DNA of 64,000 bases. Source: Branchiibius hedensis. GTDB lineage: Bacteria > Actinomycetota > Actinomycetes > Actinomycetales > Dermatophilaceae. This document shows, in pieces, positions 39,341-59,882 of the stretch. The stretch lies in contig NZ_UESZ01000001.1 in the NCBI RefSeq assembly GCF_900108585.1, positions 2,728,001 through 2,792,000 on the forward strand, written 5' to 3'. Every line of letters begins with the position of its first letter. Position 1 is the stretch's first letter. A program made the position numbers and the translations under genes. The notes under the pieces were generated by a model. It saw only the letters and a program-made list of their open reading frames with translations. It was not told where the DNA came from and ran no database searches.

Positions 39341-39609
39341 ACACGCAGGACTGGACACTGGTCTACTCGCGCGCCGCGCAGAAGGACGCCAAGAAACTGG
39401 CGGCTTCCGGGCTGAAACCGAAGGCGCAGCAACTGCTGGACGTCCTGCGGGAGGATCCGTTTGCCACGACCCCGCGCTACGAGAAGCTGGTTGGCGATCT
39501 GGCGGGCTGCTACTCCAGGCGTATCAACATCCAGCACCGAATGGTCTACGAGATCCTGCCCGACGAGCGGACCGTCCACATCCTGCGCATGTGGACGCAC
39601 TACGAATAG
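39337..39609 (+). CDS. yoeB: Txe/YoeB toxin (ribosome-dependent RNase)
   Basis: 90 residues with the YoeB fold: WTLVYSRAAQKDAKKLAASG, PRYEKLVGDLAGCYSRRIN, QHRMVYEI and the C-terminal HILRMWTHYE. Glu/Arg/His/Tyr catalytic residues at the expected places. It cleaves mRNA at the ribosomal A site. GTG start inside the antitoxin's end. Its stop lies two bases before a remnant of an IS256 end. Confidence 0.87.
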   Translation: MNTQDWTLVYSRAAQKDAKKLAASGLKPKAQQLLDVLREDPFATTPRYEKLVGDLAGCYSRRINIQHRMVYEILPDERTVHILRMWTHYE

Positions 39610-39611
39610 CC

Positions 39612-39658
39612 GAAGCCAACGACGTCACGCCAAGCCAGTTACACAAAGTGACGGACAC
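39612..39658 (-). mobile_element. Remnant of an IS256-family right end
   Basis: GACGTCACGCCAAGCCA and TTACACAAAGT in 39621-39649 match the right end of the two IS256 copies here (for example 46621-46650), with a few changes in the outermost bases. No transposase is attached. It abuts the yoeB stop, so a third element was once here, or the end was captured by recombination. Confidence 0.65.
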
Positions 39659-39825: not shown

Positions 39826-41013
39826 TCAAGACGCTGCGGGGAGGGGCCTCGTAGGGTGGGTGGTGGCGGGTCCGGGAAGTGGCTTGTCCGAAGAGCCGGT
39901 GGTGGGTTGTGAGCCGGTCGCGCTGGAGTCAGAGTCGTCACCTGGTTGCCCTCCCGGGCCCGTCGTCGCCGGCTGGGTCAGGTCGGTCAGCATGGTGCGG
40001 TAGACGATGTCGGACAGTCGCCGTTTGAGGCAGCGCATCGCTTCCATGGAGGATTTCCCGTCGGCTTTCTTGCGGTCGTAGTACGCCCGGCCTTGGGTGG
40101 GGTTGCGTAGTTGGACGGTGGCCATGGTGTGGAGCACCCGGTTGATCTGACGGTTCCCGCCGCGGGACAGGCGGTGCCGGACGGTGTCGCCGGAGGAGGC
40201 GTCGATGGGTGCGGTGCCGGTCCAGGACGCGAAGTGGTTGTGGTCGGGGAAGCGGGTGATGTCTTCGACTTCGACCAGCAGCATCGCTGCCCCGGTGGGC
40301 CCGATGCCGTGCAGCTCGGTCAGGTGGGTGCCGGTTTCGGCCAACGCGGCGAGGAGGTCTTTGTCGGCTTGTTTGGTGCGGGTGTAGACCTTCTCCAGGT
40401 CGGTGATCAACTCCATGGCCAGCTGTTTACGGGCTTTGCCGGCGGGGTCTTTGGGGCGCACCGGGGACAGCAGTGTGCGGGCTTGGCGGGCGGACAGGTA
40501 GATCTTCGCCCCGCCCGGGATCAGTTCCAGCAGTAGGCGATGCACTTGGGAGATCTTGCGGGTGTGTTCTTCTCCGAGCATCCGGCGCCGATCGACCAGC
40601 ACCCGCAACAACTCGATCTGCTCGTTGCTGACCACGGGGCGTAGCCCGGTGACGCGGACCCCGATCAGGGCGATGGAGTGCGCGTCGGTGTCATCGGTCT
40701 TGCGTCCGTTGCCGGCGGTCAGCAACCGCACCCGGTAGGACAGTTTCGCCGGGACATCCACCACGGTCTCGCCGGCGGCGACCAGTCGGGCGGCGACGTG
40801 CCGGCCGATCCCGGCGCACCCTTCGATCGCCCACACCCGATCCGGGTAGGAAGCAACGTGGGTCAGCATGCGGGTGAAACCGTCACTGTCGGTGTCGAAC
40901 CGGCCACCATCCAACACTTGCTCGCCGGCGTTCATCACTTCGATGGTGACCGAGCGTTTGTGCGGGTCCATCCCGATCACCACCGCGCCCGGTGGGGGTG
41001 AGCTGTTCTGCAT
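39826..41013 (-). CDS. IS110-family transposase
   Basis: 395 residues. N-terminal DEDD RuvC-like domain (VVIGMDPHKRSVTIEV; AGNGRKTDDTDAHSIAL) and C-terminal Tnp domain (ELHGIGPTGAAMLLVEVED, FASWTGTAPIDASSGDTVRH, RLSRGGNRQINRVLHTMA, with the catalytic Ser). ATG 41013 was chosen; longer frames upstream are noncoding-like. The tail is Pro/Thr/Ser-rich. The upstream gap is where IS110-group elements encode a bridge RNA. Ends of the element are not defined. Confidence 0.85.
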   Translation of the reverse strand: MQNSSPPPGAVVIGMDPHKRSVTIEVMNAGEQVLDGGRFDTDSDGFTRMLTHVASYPDRVWAIEGCAGIGRHVAARLVAAGETVVDVPAKLSYRVRLLTAGNGRKTDDTDAHSIALIGVRVTGLRPVVSNEQIELLRVLVDRRRMLGEEHTRKISQVHRLLLELIPGGAKIYLSARQARTLLSPVRPKDPAGKARKQLAMELITDLEKVYTRTKQADKDLLAALAETGTHLTELHGIGPTGAAMLLVEVEDITRFPDHNHFASWTGTAPIDASSGDTVRHRLSRGGNRQINRVLHTMATVQLRNPTQGRAYYDRKKADGKSSMEAMRCLKRRLSDIVYRTMLTDLTQPATTGPGGQPGDDSDSSATGSQPTTGSSDKPLPGPATTHPTRPLPAAS

Positions 41014-41288
41014 CGTTGTTGCTCCCGTTCTCGAGTACCGGATCGGTGGTCGAGCGCAGGAGGGCATTGCTACTTCCGGCAGCGCATTCCTCTCTTGAGC
41101 CTCTCCCGGCCCTGGCGGTGCCCGGGGATGCGCAGGCCAAATGAGAGCCACACCACAACGGTGAGCAGCCGAAAAGAGAGCGACAACCCCGGACACCTGA
41201 ATCCTGCTCCGGCCAGAGCAGGACCTACCCCAGATTCTCTAAGTAGCCGCTGGGAGGACGGCTACGCTCGTCCGGTCGTGCCGCGATC
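41014..41288. other. Noncoding left flank of IS110 transposase
   Basis: 275 bases with no convincing gene. On the minus strand this is the upstream part of the IS110 element where group members encode the guide (bridge) RNA. I see short GC-rich stems (CCCGG/CCGGG near 41110-41125) but cannot fold it reliably. Confidence 0.35.
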
Positions 41289-41729: not shown

Positions 41730-43428
41730 CCTGACTCGTGCCACCGGGGTGTGTCATTTCGAGTTGGCTTGAAGGGCGTCGAGGATCTCTGCTGCGGCTG
41801 GGGTGAGTTGGTCTTGGGCGATGACCTCATGTCCGGCGATCCGGACGGTGATTTGCTGTAGCGGTCGTAGGGTTCGCACGATCTTGCGGATGCTGAGCCC
41901 GGTCTGCTGCTGCAGGTGCCGGCTCAGCGCGAGGGCGGCGAATACGATGGTCAGGTGGGCTTCGATGGCGTCGCGGTCGTGGTGGGAGATCGGGCGGGCT
42001 CGCAGGTCGGTTTTACTCATCCGGAACGAGGCTTCGACCTGCCACAGGTCGTGGTACTTCGCGATCACCTCCGCGGCGGGCATGGTGGCCTTGGGGATGT
42101 TGGTGACGTAGCCCTTGAGCCCGACCAGGCGGCGAGCCCGTTCCAGTGCTGATTGGTTCAATTCCGTTGTGCCGTCGACGGTTTTGACGAAGCGGGGTTT
42201 CTTGGGTGCCCGTTCCCCATCGACCACGGCCTGGGCCCGCTGCTGCTGGATCGTCAACGTCTTGTTATCGCGGACGGCGCGTTTGCGGGAGTAGGCCCAT
42301 ACCGCCCGCCACGACAACGGATGGTCCTCGCGGTCCCACTCCGGTTCCGCGAACTGGGCTGGGTCGTTCTCCGCTTTCGCAGCAGCGCTGGCCCGGCGTG
42401 GGGTGATGGTGTCGATGACCTGCCCATCAGTGAACGCATCGCCGCGCCACCGGAAGTGCTTAGCCAAGTCCCCCGGTGCCTTCACTACGCGGGAGCCGAC
42501 GATGAACCGCAGGTTCGCCTCATCCAGTGTCGTGAGGTTCTCCGCCGAGAGCATCCCGGCGTCGGCGACCACGACCACGTCGGCCAGCCCGTGGCGCTCT
42601 TGGAACTGGGTGACAATCGGCACGATCGTGGCGGTCTCGGCCTGGTTGCCTCCGTAGCAGCCGATCTCCAACGGGAAGCCGCCCCGGTCCACCAGGAGCC
42701 CGACGACGATCTGTGGGTCGACGCGGCGTTCTTTGGAGTAGCCCACTTTGCGTAGGTCGTCTTCCTTCTCCGCCTCGAAATACAACGTCGTCACGTCGTA
42801 CAGGCACAAGCTGAGATCGCCTGCGACCGTGACGTGTTCGAAGCACGCCGCCGCCAGGGTGTCGCGGTACTCGGCGCTGGCGCACCGCTTCAACGACCGG
42901 AACATCATTGCGCAACGAAGCGTGCGGCACCCCGATCTCTTCCAGCACCCGCACCGTGTCCGCCTTGCTGGTCGGTTCGATGATCCGGGCCAACACCAGC
43001 TCCCGGAACGCGGCATCGCCGAGCGCGTCGAACCCCAGGTCGGCGTACGCCCGCGTGAGCACCTGCCACAACACGGCGCTGGTCTTAGCGGTGATCACCC
43101 CCGGGCGGGTAGCACCGCTCTCATCGTCGAGACCGAGATCTAAGGCCTCCTGCCCTGGCCGTAACCGCTGGCGCGCTTGCTGCATCAGCACCGCCAGCTC
43201 GGCGTCGCTGCGCGCGGTCCCGATGTGCTCCAGCACCACGTCACGTCCTGCCCGGCGCTCGGCGATCTGCACTTTCGTGGCACTGGAACGGCCCGGGACC
43301 TTCCGCACAAACGCCACGACCCCGACGATAGCCAGTAGCGGGGTGTGTCAATCAGCCGAACCGTAACCCGCTGACCAGCACCGATGTCCCATCAAACTCA
43401 ACCGTCAGCTCAAGTGGCACGAGTCAGG
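41730..43428 (-). mobile_element. IS1634-like insertion sequence
   Basis: About 1.7 kb, bounded by perfect 15-bp inverted repeats CCTGACTCGTGCCAC (41730-41744) and its complement (43414-43428). GCCTAA occurs directly before the left end and 6 bases after the right one; an extra copy of AGTCAG lies in between, so this is only a possible 6-bp target duplication. Carries one broken transposase gene. Confidence 0.8.
41754..43317 (-). pseudogene. IS1634-family transposase, frameshifted
   Basis: DDE-type transposase. The N-terminal part (MAFVRKVPGRSSATKVQIAE, HIGTARSDAELAVLM) and the C-terminal part (SLCLYDVTTLYFEAEKEDDL, VVVADAGMLSAENL, DLWQVEASFRMSKTDLR) lie in different frames, joined at about 42905-42912 where one base is in excess. 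Restoring it gives 520 residues. IS1634 elements are not known for programmed frameshifting, so it is probably inactive or an error. Confidence 0.78.
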
Positions 43429-43541: not shown

Positions 43542-44207
43542 TCAAACGAGCACGAGAGAGTGGAAAGCGAAGAAGCAAGTCCACGCAGCGAGCAGGATTC
43601 CGAGAGCTGGGCTCATTAGGCGCACCCTTGTCTCATACATTAAAGGCAGATTTATCTGATTGTGATCTATCTCATAGCGCCGACTCCCCAGAGCCAGCCG
43701 GAGCAGAATTTCCTCCTGGCTTTCACCCCTTATGATGGTCAGCCCCGTTCGCTCAATCCCAGTACAGACAATTCGCCTGTTACCTTCATACTTCAAGGTG
43801 ACCCTGCCAAGAAAACTCGGTTCACCTATTTCGATTCTGCATCCATTGAAAAGTGCCATGCGATACACCTTCAAAGGATTCCTGATCGTCAGCCGACCAG
43901 GTGATAATTCGATGATCGGTCGTGCGAGCAGCAACTCGGATCCAACTGAAAGCGCTGCTAGTCCAGCGGCGTACAGTAGTGCGCCCACTCCGCGAATCTC
44001 GTCGGATCCTTTGATTGAATCGAAACCACTAATCGAAACGACGGCAACGGCGAGAAGCGCATACGAGACGAAACGTCCGCCAACCAAGGCAGCCGTCACC
44101 CGAAGACGGAGCCGGCCGCAAGTGTCCTCGCCATTGGCTAGGACACACTGATCGGCCTCCTCGGCCGTGGCCGGCCTCCACCGGCCACCCTCACATGGGG
44201 ATTCCAT
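43542..44207 (-). CDS. Membrane protein, candidate immunity partner of RHS toxin
   Basis: 221 residues from ATG 44207 (GTG 44210 also possible). Two hydrophobic segments (VSYALLAVAVVSI, LLYAAGLAALSVG) at 45-100, a soluble PH-like stretch (IIELSPGRLTIRNPLKV) and a C-terminal TM (GILLAAWTCFFAFHSLVLV). The gene is AT-richer than neighbours, suggesting transfer. Its start overlaps the stop of the RHS C-terminal gene, the standard place for an immunity gene. Confidence 0.55.
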   Translation of the reverse strand: MESPCEGGRWRPATAEEADQCVLANGEDTCGRLRLRVTAALVGGRFVSYALLAVAVVSISGFDSIKGSDEIRGVGALLYAAGLAALSVGSELLLARPIIELSPGRLTIRNPLKVYRMALFNGCRIEIGEPSFLGRVTLKYEGNRRIVCTGIERTGLTIIRGESQEEILLRLALGSRRYEIDHNQINLPLMYETRVRLMSPALGILLAAWTCFFAFHSLVLV

Positions 44208-45269
44208 CACATATAATCCGAGAAATACGACTGCATAACGCTTAGCTTGGTCGAATGCACGTAGTACGACGACCTGTATTTCCAGTTCGGCACACGCCGG
44301 TAGTTGGGCCTAACTATCTGCCCCACGCTTCTTGGGACAGCCCGCCTAACCTTATAGGACGAATAGGCTGCACCACGGGTCATCTGATACCCCGACTGGA
44401 GAAGACGGCCGGCTCCGTAACCACCGGCGGTCCAGGCTAAATTCACTCCAAGGGAGCGAGCAAACCCCCAGCTTCGGAAGCGTCCAGCACTAATCCGCGC
44501 ATTTGCAACTGACGCCACAACGCCAACCGCTGCGCAGGTTCCAAGCGTGACGAATGAACATGTGCCGAAGGCGGCTAGTCCGATGGCCTTGGTTGGATTC
44601 TTCTTTACCCAATTCGCTGCCTTTTTGACCCATCGTGGCCATCCGAATTGTCCGGTGGGGTCGCTTGAGTTGATGGGGTCGGTGGGGTAGCCGTAGCTGG
44701 TGTCGTTACCGCCGGGGACGGGGTCGGGGCTGGTGAACCCGCCGGTCGTCCAGTTGTACAAGCGGGCACCCATGAGGGTGAATTGGGCGGTTTGGCCGTT
44801 GGTGGCGCGTTCTTTCCCGCCGAGCCACCCGTACCCCAGGGGTCCGGTGACCGAACTGTCGGCCCAGTGCCAGTTGATCGGCAGCCCGCCGTACTCGTCG
44901 TATCCGGACCAGCCGGTGATCCCGAACGCGGTGGTCGTGCTCGACGAGCTGGCGGGGATGGTGATGGCGGTGACGTTGTTGTCGTGCGGGTCGACCAGGC
45001 TGATCGAGGCGGACCCGTCCTGGGCGATCATCGCCCCCAGGCCACCGTCCAACCCGGGCGTGTACTTGGTCCACGACTCAGCCTGCCCTGGTTTGGCGGT
45101 CACGGACCAGGAGGGGTTGTCGGAGGTGTCGGTGTAGTGCCGGGTCACCACCATCCCGTCGTCCCACCCGCCGGCGGTGGACTGGGTCAGCCGCCGACCC
45201 GCCTCATCCAGGCTGAACGTGGTGCTCATGCCCTGGTTACTAATCGAAGCCACCGAATCATCCACGTAA
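44207..45269 (-). pseudogene. C-terminus of an RHS polymorphic toxin, truncated by IS256
   Basis: The last RHS repeats and the RHS core are visible: LDEAGRRLTQSTAGGWDD, GYGWLGGKERATNG, MGARLYNWTTGGFTSPDP, and the closing YPTDPINSSDPTGQFG. After it comes a 145-residue variable tail (WVKKAANWVKKNPTKAIG, Gly/Ala-rich hydrophobic stretch, Tyr/Arg-rich end), presumably the toxin; family not recognised. All of the protein upstream of 45269 is missing: an IS256 element begins there and beyond it is unrelated DNA. Not secreted or functional as it stands. Confidence 0.8.
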
Positions 45270-46661
45270 GGGTCCGTCTGATTCTTTGTGTAAGTGGCAT
45301 CGGCTAGTTCAGACCTAGGCGGTCGCCGTAGGTCATGGATAGTACGTTCAGGATGTTCTTCCAGCCGGCGATCTGCCCGGTGGGGTTGGGTCGGTTCTTC
45401 TGCCGCTCCAACACCGCGAGGTAGAGCACCTTCAACGCGGATTGCTCGTCCGGGAAATGGCCCCGTCGACGTGTCGCTGCCCGGAACCGGGCGTTCAACG
45501 ACTCGATCCCGTTGGTCGTATAGATCAGTTTGCGGACCTCGACAGGGAAGTCCAGGAACGGGATGAACTCGGTCCAGGAGTTGCGCCACATCCGCACCAT
45601 CGCCGGATACAGCGGTTCCCACTGCTGCGCGAAGGTCTCGAACTCGGTTTCGGCCGCCGCCAGCGACGGGGCGGTGTAGATCCGCTTGAGGTCGCGGGTG
45701 ATGGCCTGCCAGTACTTCTTGGAGGCGTACCGCAGACTGTTGCGGACCAAATGCACCACACACGTTTGCACCGTGGCGGCCGGCCAGGCCGCGGTGATCG
45801 CTTCGGGCAACCCTTTGAGGCCGTCGCAGCACACGATGCACGCATCGAGGATGCCACGATTCTTCAAGTCCGACAGCATGTTCATCCACTGCTTAGCTCC
45901 TTCCCCACCCGAAGGCCCGACCCACAACCCCAGCACATCGCGAAAACCATTGAGGTCTATACCGATTGCGACATACACCGGCCGGTTCGCCACGGTCCCT
46001 TCGCGGACCTTCAACACGATCGCGTCAATCAAGATCACCGGGTAGATCGCATCCAACGGACGCGCCGACCACGCCTTCATCTCACCCAACACCTGGTCGG
46101 TGACCCGCGAGACCAGGTCCCGGGAAACATCGGTGTCGTACACCTGGGACAGGTGAGCGGCGATGTCCCCGGTGGTCATGCCCTTGGCGTACAGCGAAAT
46201 CACGGCCTCATCGAACCCGGCCAGGCGGCGCTGGTGCTTGGGCACGATCTGCGGTTCGAACGTGCCGGCCCGATCCCGCGGAACCTGGATCTGCACATCC
46301 CCGATCTCGGTACGCACCGTCTTAGGACTGGAGCCATTGCGGGAGTTGCCCCCATCACGGCCAGCCACAGCGTGCTTGTCATACCCCAGGTGGGCGCTCA
46401 TCTCGGCCTCCAACGCCGCCTGCAGCACCCGCCGCGTCAGCGTCGTCAACAACCCACCCTCACCGGTCAAAGCGACCTGCCGCTCGACCGCCGAAGCGAC
46501 CAACTGCTGCGCCAGATCATCAACGTCAACCGACTCGGCCGACGACCTCGCCACCAACTCACCATGCGCTTGCTCATCAGACATGACGCGATCTTCCTTC
46601 CGCCCCAGCCAAAGCCATGGACGTCACGCCAAGCCACTTACACAAAGTTCCGGACAGACCC
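45270..46661 (-). mobile_element. IS256-family element, copy 1
   Basis: 1392 bp, with imperfect terminal inverted repeats (25 of 29 positions) starting GGGTCCGTCTGATTC on the left and ending GGACAGACCC on the right. It is 97% or more like copy 2 by eye. Flanks TCCACGTAA and CCGCCTGAG do not match, so there is no target duplication, unlike copy 2. It splits the RHS gene from its missing 5' part. Confidence 0.88.
45304..46584 (-). CDS. IS256-family transposase (copy 1)
   Basis: 426 residues, Transposase_mut family. Conserved YAKGMTTGDIAAHLSQVY, VILIDAIVLKVREG (first Asp), CDGLKGLPEAI (second Asp) and YTTNGIESLNARFRAATRR with the catalytic Glu further on. Starts ATG 46584. Intact, presumably active. 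A second, nearly identical copy is at 58517. Confidence 0.92.
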   Translation of the reverse strand: MSDEQAHGELVARSSAESVDVDDLAQQLVASAVERQVALTGEGGLLTTLTRRVLQAALEAEMSAHLGYDKHAVAGRDGGNSRNGSSPKTVRTEIGDVQIQVPRDRAGTFEPQIVPKHQRRLAGFDEAVISLYAKGMTTGDIAAHLSQVYDTDVSRDLVSRVTDQVLGEMKAWSARPLDAIYPVILIDAIVLKVREGTVANRPVYVAIGIDLNGFRDVLGLWVGPSGGEGAKQWMNMLSDLKNRGILDACIVCCDGLKGLPEAITAAWPAATVQTCVVHLVRNSLRYASKKYWQAITRDLKRIYTAPSLAAAETEFETFAQQWEPLYPAMVRMWRNSWTEFIPFLDFPVEVRKLIYTTNGIESLNARFRAATRRRGHFPDEQSALKVLYLAVLERQKNRPNPTGQIAGWKNILNVLSMTYGDRLGLN

Positions 46662-46888: not shown

Positions 46889-46964
46889 TGGAGCCGGCGA
46901 CAGGAGTCGAACCCGCGACATCCTCATTACAAGTGAGGCGCTCTACCAACTGAGCTACGCCGGC
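46889..46964 (-). tRNA. tRNA-Thr (anticodon TGT)
   Basis: Reverse strand cloverleaf: acceptor GCCGGCG pairs with CGCCGGC over 7 bp; D arm GCTCAGTTGGTAGAGC; anticodon stem CCTCA/TGAGG with loop CTTGTAA, anticodon TGT; T loop TTCGACT; discriminator T then encoded CCA. It marks the right edge of the accessory region. Confidence 0.95.
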
Positions 46965-47196: not shown

Positions 47197-49882
<2,686 letters not shown>

Positions 49883-49976: not shown

Positions 49977-50228
49977 ATGGCCACCGTTGGACTACGCGAA
50001 CTCCGACAAGACGCATCCCACCTGGTGCGCCGGGTCGAGGACGGCGAGGAGATCACCGTGACCGTCGCCGGACGCCCGAGCGCTCGTCTGGTCCCTGTGT
50101 CTGGTCGCCGTTGGCGCGCGTGGACCGATCTGGAAGATCTGTTCGCGGGGCCAGCCGACACGAATTGGGAGACGGATCGCGATTCCATCGACCACGACGT
50201 CATGCGCGATCCGTGGCTACCTCGGTGA
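49977..50228 (+). CDS. Phd-type antitoxin
   Basis: 83 residues: [41 protein letters not shown] is the Phd/YefM-like start (prevent-host-death). The C-terminal part binds the toxin. Its stop overlaps the start of the PIN gene by 4 bases. Divergent from furA. Confidence 0.8.
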
Positions 50229-50605
50229 GGACCGTCCTCGATACCAGCGTATTGATCGCGCGCGACGTTGCCCCGATCGAGGGCGAACTCGCGATCAGCG
50301 CGGTCAGTGTGGCCGAGTTGCACTTCGGTGTGCTCGTGGCATCGAGCCCCTCCGTGCGCGCCGAGCGACTGCGCCGGTTGTCGCTGCTGCAGCGTCAGTT
50401 TGATGCCCTGCCCGTCGATGACGCGGTTGCCGACAGCTACGGGCAGCTCGCCGCAGCTGTTGTCGCAGTCGGGCGCAAGCCGCGCGCCCGGTCACTCGAC
50501 CTGCTCATCGCAGCCACGGCCCATGCCCACAACTCCCGGCTATGCACCCGCAACCCTGGTGACTTCCGCGGCGTGGAGGACCTCGTCGAGATCCTCCACG
50601 CCTAG
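50225..50605 (+). CDS. vapC: VapC-like PIN-domain toxin
   Basis: 126 residues from GTG 50225. PIN nuclease: [12 protein letters not shown] (first Asp), [12 protein letters not shown] (Glu), [12 protein letters not shown] (Asp) and CTRNPGDF (last acidic/Asn). It cleaves RNA in this family. Coupled to the Phd-type antitoxin. Confidence 0.85.
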
Positions 50606-58361: not shown

Positions 58362-58482
58362 GGTGGGCTCGCGGGCTCGCAACGTCCGAGATCCGCACTA
58401 TCTCGGAGGTTCGGTTGATCAAACAACCGAGAAGGTGCAGATCTCCTAGACAGTGAGGCGGTCTGGGGATGTAGTCAACTAC

Positions 58483-59874
58483 GGGTCCGTCTGATTCTTT
58501 GTGTAAGTGGCATCGGCTAGTTCAGACCTAGGCGGTCGCCGTAGGTCATGGATAGTACGTTCAGGATGTTCTTCCAGCCGGCGATCTGCCCGGTGGGGTT
58601 GGGTCGGTTCTTCTGCCGCTCCAACACCGCGAGGTAGAGCACCTTCAACGCGGATTGCTCGTCCGGGAAATGGCCCCGTCGACGTGTCGCTGCCCGGAAC
58701 CGGGCGTTCAACGACTCGATCCCGTTGGTCGTATAGATCAGTTTGCGGACCTCGACAGGGAAGTCCAGGAACGGGATGAACTCGGTCCAGGAGTTGCGCC
58801 ACATCCGCACCATCGCCGGATACAGCGGTTCCCACTGCTGCGCGAAGGTCTCGAACTCGGTTTCGGCCGCCGCCAGCGACGGGGCGGTGTAGATCCGCTT
58901 GAGGTCGCGGGTGATGGCCTGCCAGTACTTCTTGGAGGCGTACCGCAGACTGTTGCGGACCAAATGCACCACACACGTTTGCACCGTGGCGGCCGGCCAG
59001 GTCGCCGTGATCGCCTCGGGCAAGCCTTTGAGGCCGTCGCAGCACACGATGCACGCATCGAGGATGCCACGATTCTTCAAGTCCGACAGCATGTTCATCC
59101 ACTGCTTGGCTCCTTCCCCACCCGATGGGCCGACCCACAACCCCAGGACATCGCGGAAACCGTTGAGGTCTATACCGATTGCCACATACACCGGACGGTT
59201 CGCGACCGTCCCTTCGCGGACCTTCAGCACGATCGCGTCGATCAGGATCACCGGGTAGATCGCGTCCAACGGACGCGCCGACCACGCCTTCATGTCACCC
59301 AGGACCTGGTCGGTGACCCGCGAGACCAGGTCCCGGGAAACATCGGTGTCGTACACCTGGGACAGGTGAGCGGCGATGTCCCCGGTGGTCATGCCCTTCG
59401 CGTACAGCGAAATCACGGCCTCATCGAACCCGGCCAGGCGGCGCTGGTGCTTGGGCACGATCTGCGGTTCGAACGTGCCGGCCCGATCCCGCGGAACCTG
59501 GATCTGCACGTCCCCGATCTCGGTGCGCACCGTCTTGGGGCTGGAGCCATTGCGGGAGTTGCCGCCATCGCGGCCGTTGACCGCGTGCTTGTCATACCCC
59601 AGGTGGGCGCTCATCTCGGCCTCCAGGGCTGCCTGCAGGACCCGCCGCGTCAGCGTCGTCAACAACCCACCCTCACCGGTCAAAGCGACCTGCCGCTCGA
59701 CCGCCGAAGCGACCAGCTGCTGCGCCAGATCATCAACGTCAACCGACTCGGCCGACGACCTCGCCACCAACTCACCATGCGCTTGCTCATCAGACATGAC
59801 GCGATCTTCCTTCCGCCCCAGCCAAAGCCAGGGACGTCACGCCAAGCCACTTACACAAAGTTTCGGACAGACCC
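58483..59874 (-). mobile_element. IS256-family element, copy 2
   Basis: 1392 bp, same length and orientation as copy 1. It is flanked by an 8-bp target duplication TCAACTAC (58475-58482 and 59875-59882). It inserted 8 bases before the stop of the acyl-CoA synthetase gene on the minus strand (outside it), so the gene is intact. Recent insertion. Confidence 0.93.
58517..59797 (-). CDS. IS256-family transposase (copy 2)
   Basis: 426 residues, identical in nearly all positions to copy 1 (differences such as AVNGRDGG for AVAGRDGG, GDMKAW for GEMKAW). Transposase_mut with the same Asp-Asp-Glu motifs. Intact. Confidence 0.92.
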   Translation of the reverse strand: MSDEQAHGELVARSSAESVDVDDLAQQLVASAVERQVALTGEGGLLTTLTRRVLQAALEAEMSAHLGYDKHAVNGRDGGNSRNGSSPKTVRTEIGDVQIQVPRDRAGTFEPQIVPKHQRRLAGFDEAVISLYAKGMTTGDIAAHLSQVYDTDVSRDLVSRVTDQVLGDMKAWSARPLDAIYPVILIDAIVLKVREGTVANRPVYVAIGIDLNGFRDVLGLWVGPSGGEGAKQWMNMLSDLKNRGILDACIVCCDGLKGLPEAITATWPAATVQTCVVHLVRNSLRYASKKYWQAITRDLKRIYTAPSLAAAETEFETFAQQWEPLYPAMVRMWRNSWTEFIPFLDFPVEVRKLIYTTNGIESLNARFRAATRRRGHFPDEQSALKVLYLAVLERQKNRPNPTGQIAGWKNILNVLSMTYGDRLGLN

Positions 59875-59882
59875 TCAACTAC

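Follow-up and report, generated by a model that had tools for sequence, protein, structure and literature searches.

A putative stranded RHS toxin tail and its PH-like membrane partner beside an IS256-family element in Branchiibius hedensis

Tse5 of Pseudomonas aeruginosa is an RHS C-terminal toxin without predicted enzyme activity that targets the cytoplasmic membrane, and its membrane-bound immunity protein Tsi5 is encoded next to it (PMC9637101; see also PMC10684867). A locus that would resemble this pair functionally was found in Branchiibius hedensis, within the 64,000-nucleotide stretch at positions 2,728,001 to 2,792,000 of contig NZ_UESZ01000001.1 (the window). It consists of the C-terminal piece of an RHS polymorphic toxin gene, an overlapping gene for a predicted membrane protein in the immunity position, and an IS256-family insertion sequence (IS) element next to the RHS piece.

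Several other described systems share features with this locus. EsxX/ExiCD and TspA/TsaI of Staphylococcus aureus comprise Gram-positive membrane-depolarising toxins with membrane immunity proteins, and have orphan immunity genes in islands (PMC12744356). Ionophore toxins of contact-dependent inhibition (CDI) systems have a two-part toxic tail, a membrane target and highly polymorphic immunity proteins, with about 30% identity within a group (PMC11630599). An orphan Rhs toxin of Salmonella is silent unless recombined (PMC3967940). On the side of the partner, SunI is an immunity protein against sublancin in Bacillus (PMC6391423), and actinobacterial bPH_6 (PF10756) and SunI-like bPH_8 (PF23491) proteins carry hydrophobic segments at the N-terminus and a PH-like domain after them, as in the window protein (at least one segment in all eight proteins compared, two in seven). 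Polymorphic toxins of Gram-positive bacteria have been less studied (PMC12700104). In the literature covered, from which subscription journals were mostly absent, no description of the window tail or of PH-domain immunity to RHS toxins was found, and neither "PH domain" nor "pleckstrin" occurs in the accessible part of the 2012 catalogue of polymorphic toxins (PMC3482391). Systems of this kind are known, and the families of the tail and of the immunity protein appear to be undescribed.

The locus is probably an orphaned cassette, made up of the C-terminal part of an actinobacterial RHS polymorphic toxin and the immunity gene belonging to it, that was stranded by IS recombination and acts on the membrane in the manner of Tse5 and Tsi5. 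By analogy, we infer toxicity of the tail and immunity conferred by its neighbour. In the proposed mechanism, a copy of the IS located within or next to the RHS gene would have recombined with a diverged copy beside tRNA-Thr, and this recombination would have deleted the intervening DNA, including the 5' part of the RHS gene. Once an intact RHS protein had delivered it, the tail, basic and helical, would insert into and depolarise the cytoplasmic membrane of the target, as does Tse5-CT, and the three-segment bPH-like membrane protein would block the tail within the membrane, as does Tsi5. At this locus the toxin would be undeliverable, and silent unless recombined, and the immunity gene could protect against relatives with an intact toxin. 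On balance, we lean towards a wider form of this proposal, in which an actinobacterial, bPH_6-like lineage of PH-domain membrane proteins was recruited as dedicated immunity proteins against a new family of membrane-active RHS toxins, in parallel to SunI, and spreads both as pairs and as orphans, with two cassettes stranded by IS256 in this genome.

The RHS remnant and its membrane partner

On the minus strand, an open frame leads from the IS element into RHS sequence; it comprises 353 codons, 206 of core up to the DPTG motif and 147 of tail (Table 1). The core columns of this remnant are conserved in an alignment of 10 sequences, and the remnant is 43% identical to residues 2083-2381 of the 2,424-residue RHS protein of a relative (L062). 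The profile TIGR03696 (Rhs_assc_core) scored 33.5 bits in a six-frame search, above its cut-off of 32.5, and 30.6 bits, below it, against the translated RHS piece. As in RHS polymorphic toxins, an RHS core with a DPxG-type junction is followed by a variable tail. A tip cassette of low guanine-plus-cytosine (GC) content behind a GC-rich core is the typical appearance of RHS genes; here, too, a low-GC tail and immunity tip follow a GC-rich core, with the immunity gene adjacent, in a window of 66.3% GC overall. RHS repeats and an N-terminal delivery part are absent at the locus and were found nowhere else in the genome with the queries used: the whole L062 RHS protein (E 0.01) matched the remnant alone, and residues 1-2,082 of it had no counterpart found with this one query at E 0.01. 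The assembly searched is 98.85% complete and in 4 contigs; the whole-genome search relied on one query protein, which a highly divergent RHS gene could escape.

The tail contains a hydrophobic stretch at about residues 21-55, as judged by hydropathy, with two cysteines in it. No match to a Pfam or NCBIfam family at E 0.01 was obtained for any of 20 aligned tails, and a search of solved structures with the tail profile returned weak unrelated matches (best E 0.078).

The membrane gene overlaps the stop codon of the toxin gene, by 1 base from its ATG or by 4 bases from its GTG. Its product is predicted, by hydropathy only, to be an integral membrane protein, as a Tse5-like immunity protein would be, with three hydrophobic segments at about residues 37-67, 73-99 and 197-219; a PH-like region sits between the second and the C-terminal segment. 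When eight immunity-family members were compared with eight actinobacterial bPH_6 proteins, the stretch between the hydrophobic segments aligned with the latter (hhalign probability 97.8, E 6.5e-13); these bPH_6 proteins had been found by the same profile, and the comparison is therefore not independent. The four proteins of this bPH_6 set that were run against Pfam (L198, L205, L206 and L224) all exceed the bPH_6 cut-off. The window protein matched no Pfam family at E 1 and did not reach that cut-off, and two of five immunity relatives matched bPH_6 below it (14.8 and 14.6 versus 22). Among relatives linked to RHS tails, L196 passes the cut-off with 29.9 versus 22, L208 falls below it with 16.1, and the matches of the partner in Kribbella albertanoniae (L116), to bPH_10 (E 4.8e-4) and to SunI-like bPH_8 (E 0.0078), did not reach the cut-offs. 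A structure model of the window protein, made from two sequences and with a predicted local distance difference test (pLDDT) value of 42, has the order helix-helix-beta strands-helix. Solved structures searched with the immunity profile gave weak unrelated matches (best E 0.33), tblastn of the immunity protein against plasmids gave no match, and PADLOC detected no system.

Every element listed in the initial annotation of this DNA is present, namely the RHS C-terminal core and tail, the overlapping membrane gene, the IS, tRNA-Thr and katG; the length given for the tail, 145 residues, is corrected to 147. The tail had been called unfamiliar, and indeed it matches no Pfam or NCBIfam family. The membrane gene is a plausible immunity gene, and the description of the partner as PH-like agrees with its profile relation to bPH_6 and with the relative L196 passing the cut-off.

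Table 1. Features of the locus and of the two IS copies in the window.
Feature	Position	Strand	Details
Predicted immunity protein	43542..44207	-	221 aa from ATG, 222 aa from GTG at 44210; GC 55.0%; by hydropathy and family alignment
RHS remnant	44210..45268	-	stop codon 44207-44209; no internal stop; TIGR03696 match
Polymorphic toxin tail	44210..44650	-	147 aa; 22 K+R versus 1 D+E; GC 55.6%
Remaining RHS core	44651..45268	-	GC 66.8%; ends at DPTG
IS256-family element, copy 1	45270..46661	-	1392 bp; mosaic; no target duplication
Left 519 bp of copy 1	45270..45788	.	identical to the common IS type of the genome
Right 873 bp of copy 1	45789..46661	.	variant type; 40 differences from copy 2
tRNA-Thr	46889..46964	-	beyond IS copy 1
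IS copy 2	58483..59874	-	8-bp target duplication TCAACTAC at 58475-58482 and 59875-59882

Related pairs at other loci and the nature of the tail

A tail of the window family together with a relative of the membrane protein was found at five further loci: one in the same genome, one in Kribbella albertanoniae JCM 30547 (L116), and L196, L208 and L209 in three genomes of the class. In the second cassette of the same genome, tail B (L057:11974-12408; C1:2874045-2874446) is identical to the tail of the window cassette at 48 of 138 aligned residues (z score 9.3), and behind it stands a membrane gene related to that of the window (L057:11353-11925); the locus spans L057:11353-12408 (C1 about 2873352-2874407). 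Tail B keeps 11 residues of RHS core and then meets the same IS end as the window cassette, at an IS copy without duplication. A scan of genome contigs yielded 194 relatives, of which the best 80 were used. In Kribbella, the tail shares 50 of 126 aligned residues with the window tail (z score 12.6), and a relative of the membrane protein adjoins it. The RHS frame there stays open over 2,260 codons, has Pfam matches to RHS_repeat (66.2 bits) and DUF6531 (29.8 bits), and aligns with the RHS protein of a relative at 35% over residues 15-2185; RHS repeats and an N-terminal delivery part are present in this gene with a related tail. The initial annotation had held that a full-length RHS gene with a different tail would speak against its interpretation; the intact Kribbella gene, with a tail and a partner of the same two families, does not refute it, the Kribbella tail being related and not identical.

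The kinship of the partners was followed with an immunity profile of six members, the window protein and five orphans, from which L057 and L116 were excluded. Among 11,175 open reading frame (ORF) stretches in 225 loci, it found the neighbour of tail B (E 7.4e-23) and that of the Kribbella tail (E 2.7e-16). At L196, L208 and L209, a tail lies directly upstream of the PH-like membrane gene, with tail-profile E values of 4.0e-8, 4.1e-4 (weak) and 1.6e-8; these are three of 29 class-level loci (L196-L224, the window locus itself not counted), which are the best places of the immunity-profile search only. At L208 there is also another frame, which shares the linker and ends differently. In the order of Kribbella, two of 293 genomes matched at E 1e-9, that of L116 itself and G794 (8.8e-10), and the loci of G794 gave no RHS core or tail match. 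The immunity family also exists as lone genes, some of them in transposase-rich or small-gene regions. Two orphan members lie about 19 kb apart in one genome (G017; L024:11478-12101 and L103:8148-8684), and the many small membrane and soluble ORFs around L024 resemble an immunity island.

Was a full RHS gene ever present here? The module may always have been an orphan RHS toxin-immunity cassette, of the sort that is common downstream of main rhs genes, beside which the IS landed or with which it arrived, so that no full RHS gene was destroyed. Orphan rhs fragments with linked immunity genes are a known feature (PMC3967940). Genome G304 has short RHS frames (691 and 284 aa) near one of 2,334 aa, no RHS core precedes the tail in the L209 frame, L196 has another core fragment behind its immunity gene, and tail B retains just the 11 core residues mentioned above. 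However, both modules of this genome stop exactly at the same IS end, pointing to the IS as the cutter, and a main RHS gene was not found elsewhere in the genome with the queries used. This explanation is possible, though we consider it rather doubtful. Of the suggestion that the rest of the RHS gene had been removed, the recombination is supported, and a complete gene at this place is not established, since the module may have come without its 5' part.

Support for the preferred reading, in which the tail acts on the membrane, comes from the neighbours of the tails. A membrane ORF was found behind 11 of 12 tails matching the N half of the tail profile, versus 27 of 57 other tails (Fisher p 0.008), five of which had no candidate ORF behind them. 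The count takes in 69 of the 80 loci, five having been dropped as duplicates of tail-profile rows and six for tails outside 100-260 residues. In a first set of 19 loci, taken from 26 that were read and grouped by eye, a small separate membrane ORF stood behind 11 of 12 look-alike tails and behind none of seven others. In the twelfth look-alike of that set (L033:784-1776, minus strand), the tail continues in frame into a membrane protein, possibly a toxin-immunity fusion. The enrichment of membrane neighbours behind N-half tails is support, not proof.

A number of results weigh against the membrane-acting reading and the kinship behind it. The hydropathy cut-off and the ORF rule of the neighbour count were set after the loci had been inspected, and some loci are close relatives. 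One stretch of the window tail is clearly hydrophobic (best 19-residue average 1.89), and the model of the tail, with helices at residues 6-17, 19-56, 65-96 and 123-144, has a mean pLDDT of 61, a low confidence that extends to the C-terminal part. A profile of the C half found no match among 69 tails at E 1e-3 (best 0.025), and the tail family, as judged from these comparisons, is therefore defined by its hydrophobic N half. At L046, L160 and L173, that N half also stands before tail ends that resemble nucleases by eye, and the neighbours there are soluble. The immunity proteins are barely similar in pairs (z scores 2.1, 4.0 and 5.2), so far as sequence goes their kinship rests on profiles, and a single-sequence search with the window protein missed both the second locus of the same genome and Kribbella. 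The Kribbella neighbour, at 59 bits, stands only somewhat above three relatives (49-51 bits) that have no RHS tail beside them. Neither 11 larger loci around orphan immunity relatives (L024, L025 and L103-L111) nor 28 order-level loci (L069-L096) gave a match to an RHS core or tail. Against the proposed recombination, gene conversion could also produce a mosaic IS such as the one described below.

Some of these results suit a different role for the tail. Its hydrophobic N half may be a translocation segment, and on this explanation it would be a pretoxin segment, carrying the last 50-60 residues over the target membrane, and these residues would be the toxin and would act on a membrane-located target without making a pore. 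The sharing of the N half with nuclease-like tails, the lack of conservation in the C half and its low-confidence model all agree with this, and the DNase effector Tde1 enters target cells by means of a glycine zipper (PMC10240207). The membrane proteins beside 11 of 12 N-half tails and the failure of all 20 aligned tails to match a family speak against it, however, and we regard it as unlikely.

The IS256-family element and its surroundings

Elements of the IS256 family are recognised by the Transposase_mut/IS256 equivalog, terminal inverted repeats and target duplications of 8-9 bp. The element next to the RHS remnant matches NF033543 with 404 bits versus 150, has the ends GGGTC...GACCC, and is one of 11 full copies in the genome, three of which have 8-bp duplications and eight of which have none. 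Counted by site, with four near-identically flanked copies taken once, three have a duplication and five do not. These four copies (L003, L004, L010 and L011) sit close to contig ends, on C1 and C4, and their shared flanks point to a terminal repeat or to duplication in the assembly.

Copy 1, at the RHS remnant, is 97% identical to copy 2, with no differences in bases 1-519 and all 40 in bases 520-1392; were the differences placed evenly, the probability of none of the 40 falling within the first 519 of 1392 bases would be 7.9e-9. Copy 2 is matched exactly by six further copies and, but for two single-base gaps each, by two others. The RHS-side end of copy 1 thus belongs to the common type, and its tRNA-Thr-side end to the variant type. 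Another copy (L002; C1:3111987-3113377) has four variant bases (542, 626, 644 and 647) inside common-type sequence, which suggests gene conversion. With one mismatch allowed, no 8-bp flank of copy 1 recurs at an end of the ten remaining copies, as a deletion would lead one to expect; an inversion with a reciprocal product, in which a flank of copy 1 would match another copy, was rejected on this ground. The mosaic structure fits recombination between diverged IS copies. Taken together with the unmatched flanks, and as far as the sequences of the copies indicate, it agrees with a common-type copy next to the RHS gene having crossed over with a variant copy on the tRNA side, the DNA between them being lost. 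Gene conversion and transposition-linked deletion are possible alternatives.

The second of these would have the 5' part of the RHS gene removed by an IS-adjacent deletion linked to transposition, and not by homologous recombination. Deletions of adjacent DNA caused by IS elements are well known, and copy 1 has no target duplication. However, such a deletion leaves unexplained the change of type at base 520, in a genome where nine of the ten other copies have no variant tract and L002 has a short one, and we hold it distinctly improbable. It had been proposed earlier that the same IS occurs twice, with a duplication at copy 2 only, and that the missing duplication suggests an IS-adjacent deletion or recombination. 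The duplications are as described and the mosaic supports recombination at the IS, whereas copy 1 is a 97% identical mosaic rather than simply the same IS, and the missing duplication is weak evidence of a deletion, with eight of 11 copies lacking one.

That the remnant is functionless debris with an unrelated membrane gene beside it, as the lack of a visible delivery part for the toxin and the abundance of transposase ORFs in the region might suggest, is very unlikely in view of the two families standing together at six loci and of two overlapping genes whose frames are both open.

Beyond copy 1 and tRNA-Thr, the next ORF (47197-49563) matches the Pfam peroxidase family with 218.9 bits, consistent with katG, and near it lies a small pair (49977-50605) that resembles an antitoxin and a PIN-domain toxin. 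tRNA-Thr was considered as an attachment site of an island and rejected, since its 3' end occurs once in the window and no second copy of it was found there. On the other side of the locus, an isolated stretch (39608-39657) that matches the right end of the IS256-family element at 88% lies just downstream of a transposase-like ORF (39826-41196), and a transposase-like gene at 41754-43317 is in two overlapping frames (41754-43016 and 42520-43317), its relative at the second locus (L057:8701-10263) being in one. At the other end of the IS beside tail B, a secreted repeat protein (L057:13797-14984), with the motif VPVxPTRIxDTR by eye, is cut off. It was considered as the lost RHS N-terminus and rejected, having no tblastn match in 12 RHS/immunity loci; its relatives occur in 10 other genomes of 58 searched, in many long frames, and no RHS core was found near them in eight loci.

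Comparison with known systems

The described membrane-attacking RHS toxin, Tse5, belongs to Gram-negative type VI systems, and the same logic would be at work here in RHS proteins of Actinobacteria, with an immunity family that is a distant relation of PH-domain membrane proteins. If so, the RHS genes of Actinobacteria could be classified according to the presence or absence of a membrane-protein gene after the tail. The locus would also be an example of toxin cassettes being stranded by recombination between IS copies, with a protective gene left in place.

The putative pair differs from each of its described counterparts. Tse5 and Tsi5 depend on type VI delivery and are Gram-negative, and Tsi5 has two predicted membrane segments, whereas the window protein has three and a PH-like domain. 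EsxX/ExiCD and TspA/TsaI are delivered by type VII systems, and the glycine zipper motif is a feature of theirs, not one demonstrated for the window tail. Unlike the RHS remnant, CDI ionophore toxins are built on a CdiA scaffold, with a five-helix ionophore domain and entry domains that have named receptors (PMC11630599). Finally, compared with the bPH_6 and bPH_8 proteins, the window protein has an additional C-terminal hydrophobic segment and adjoins an RHS tail.

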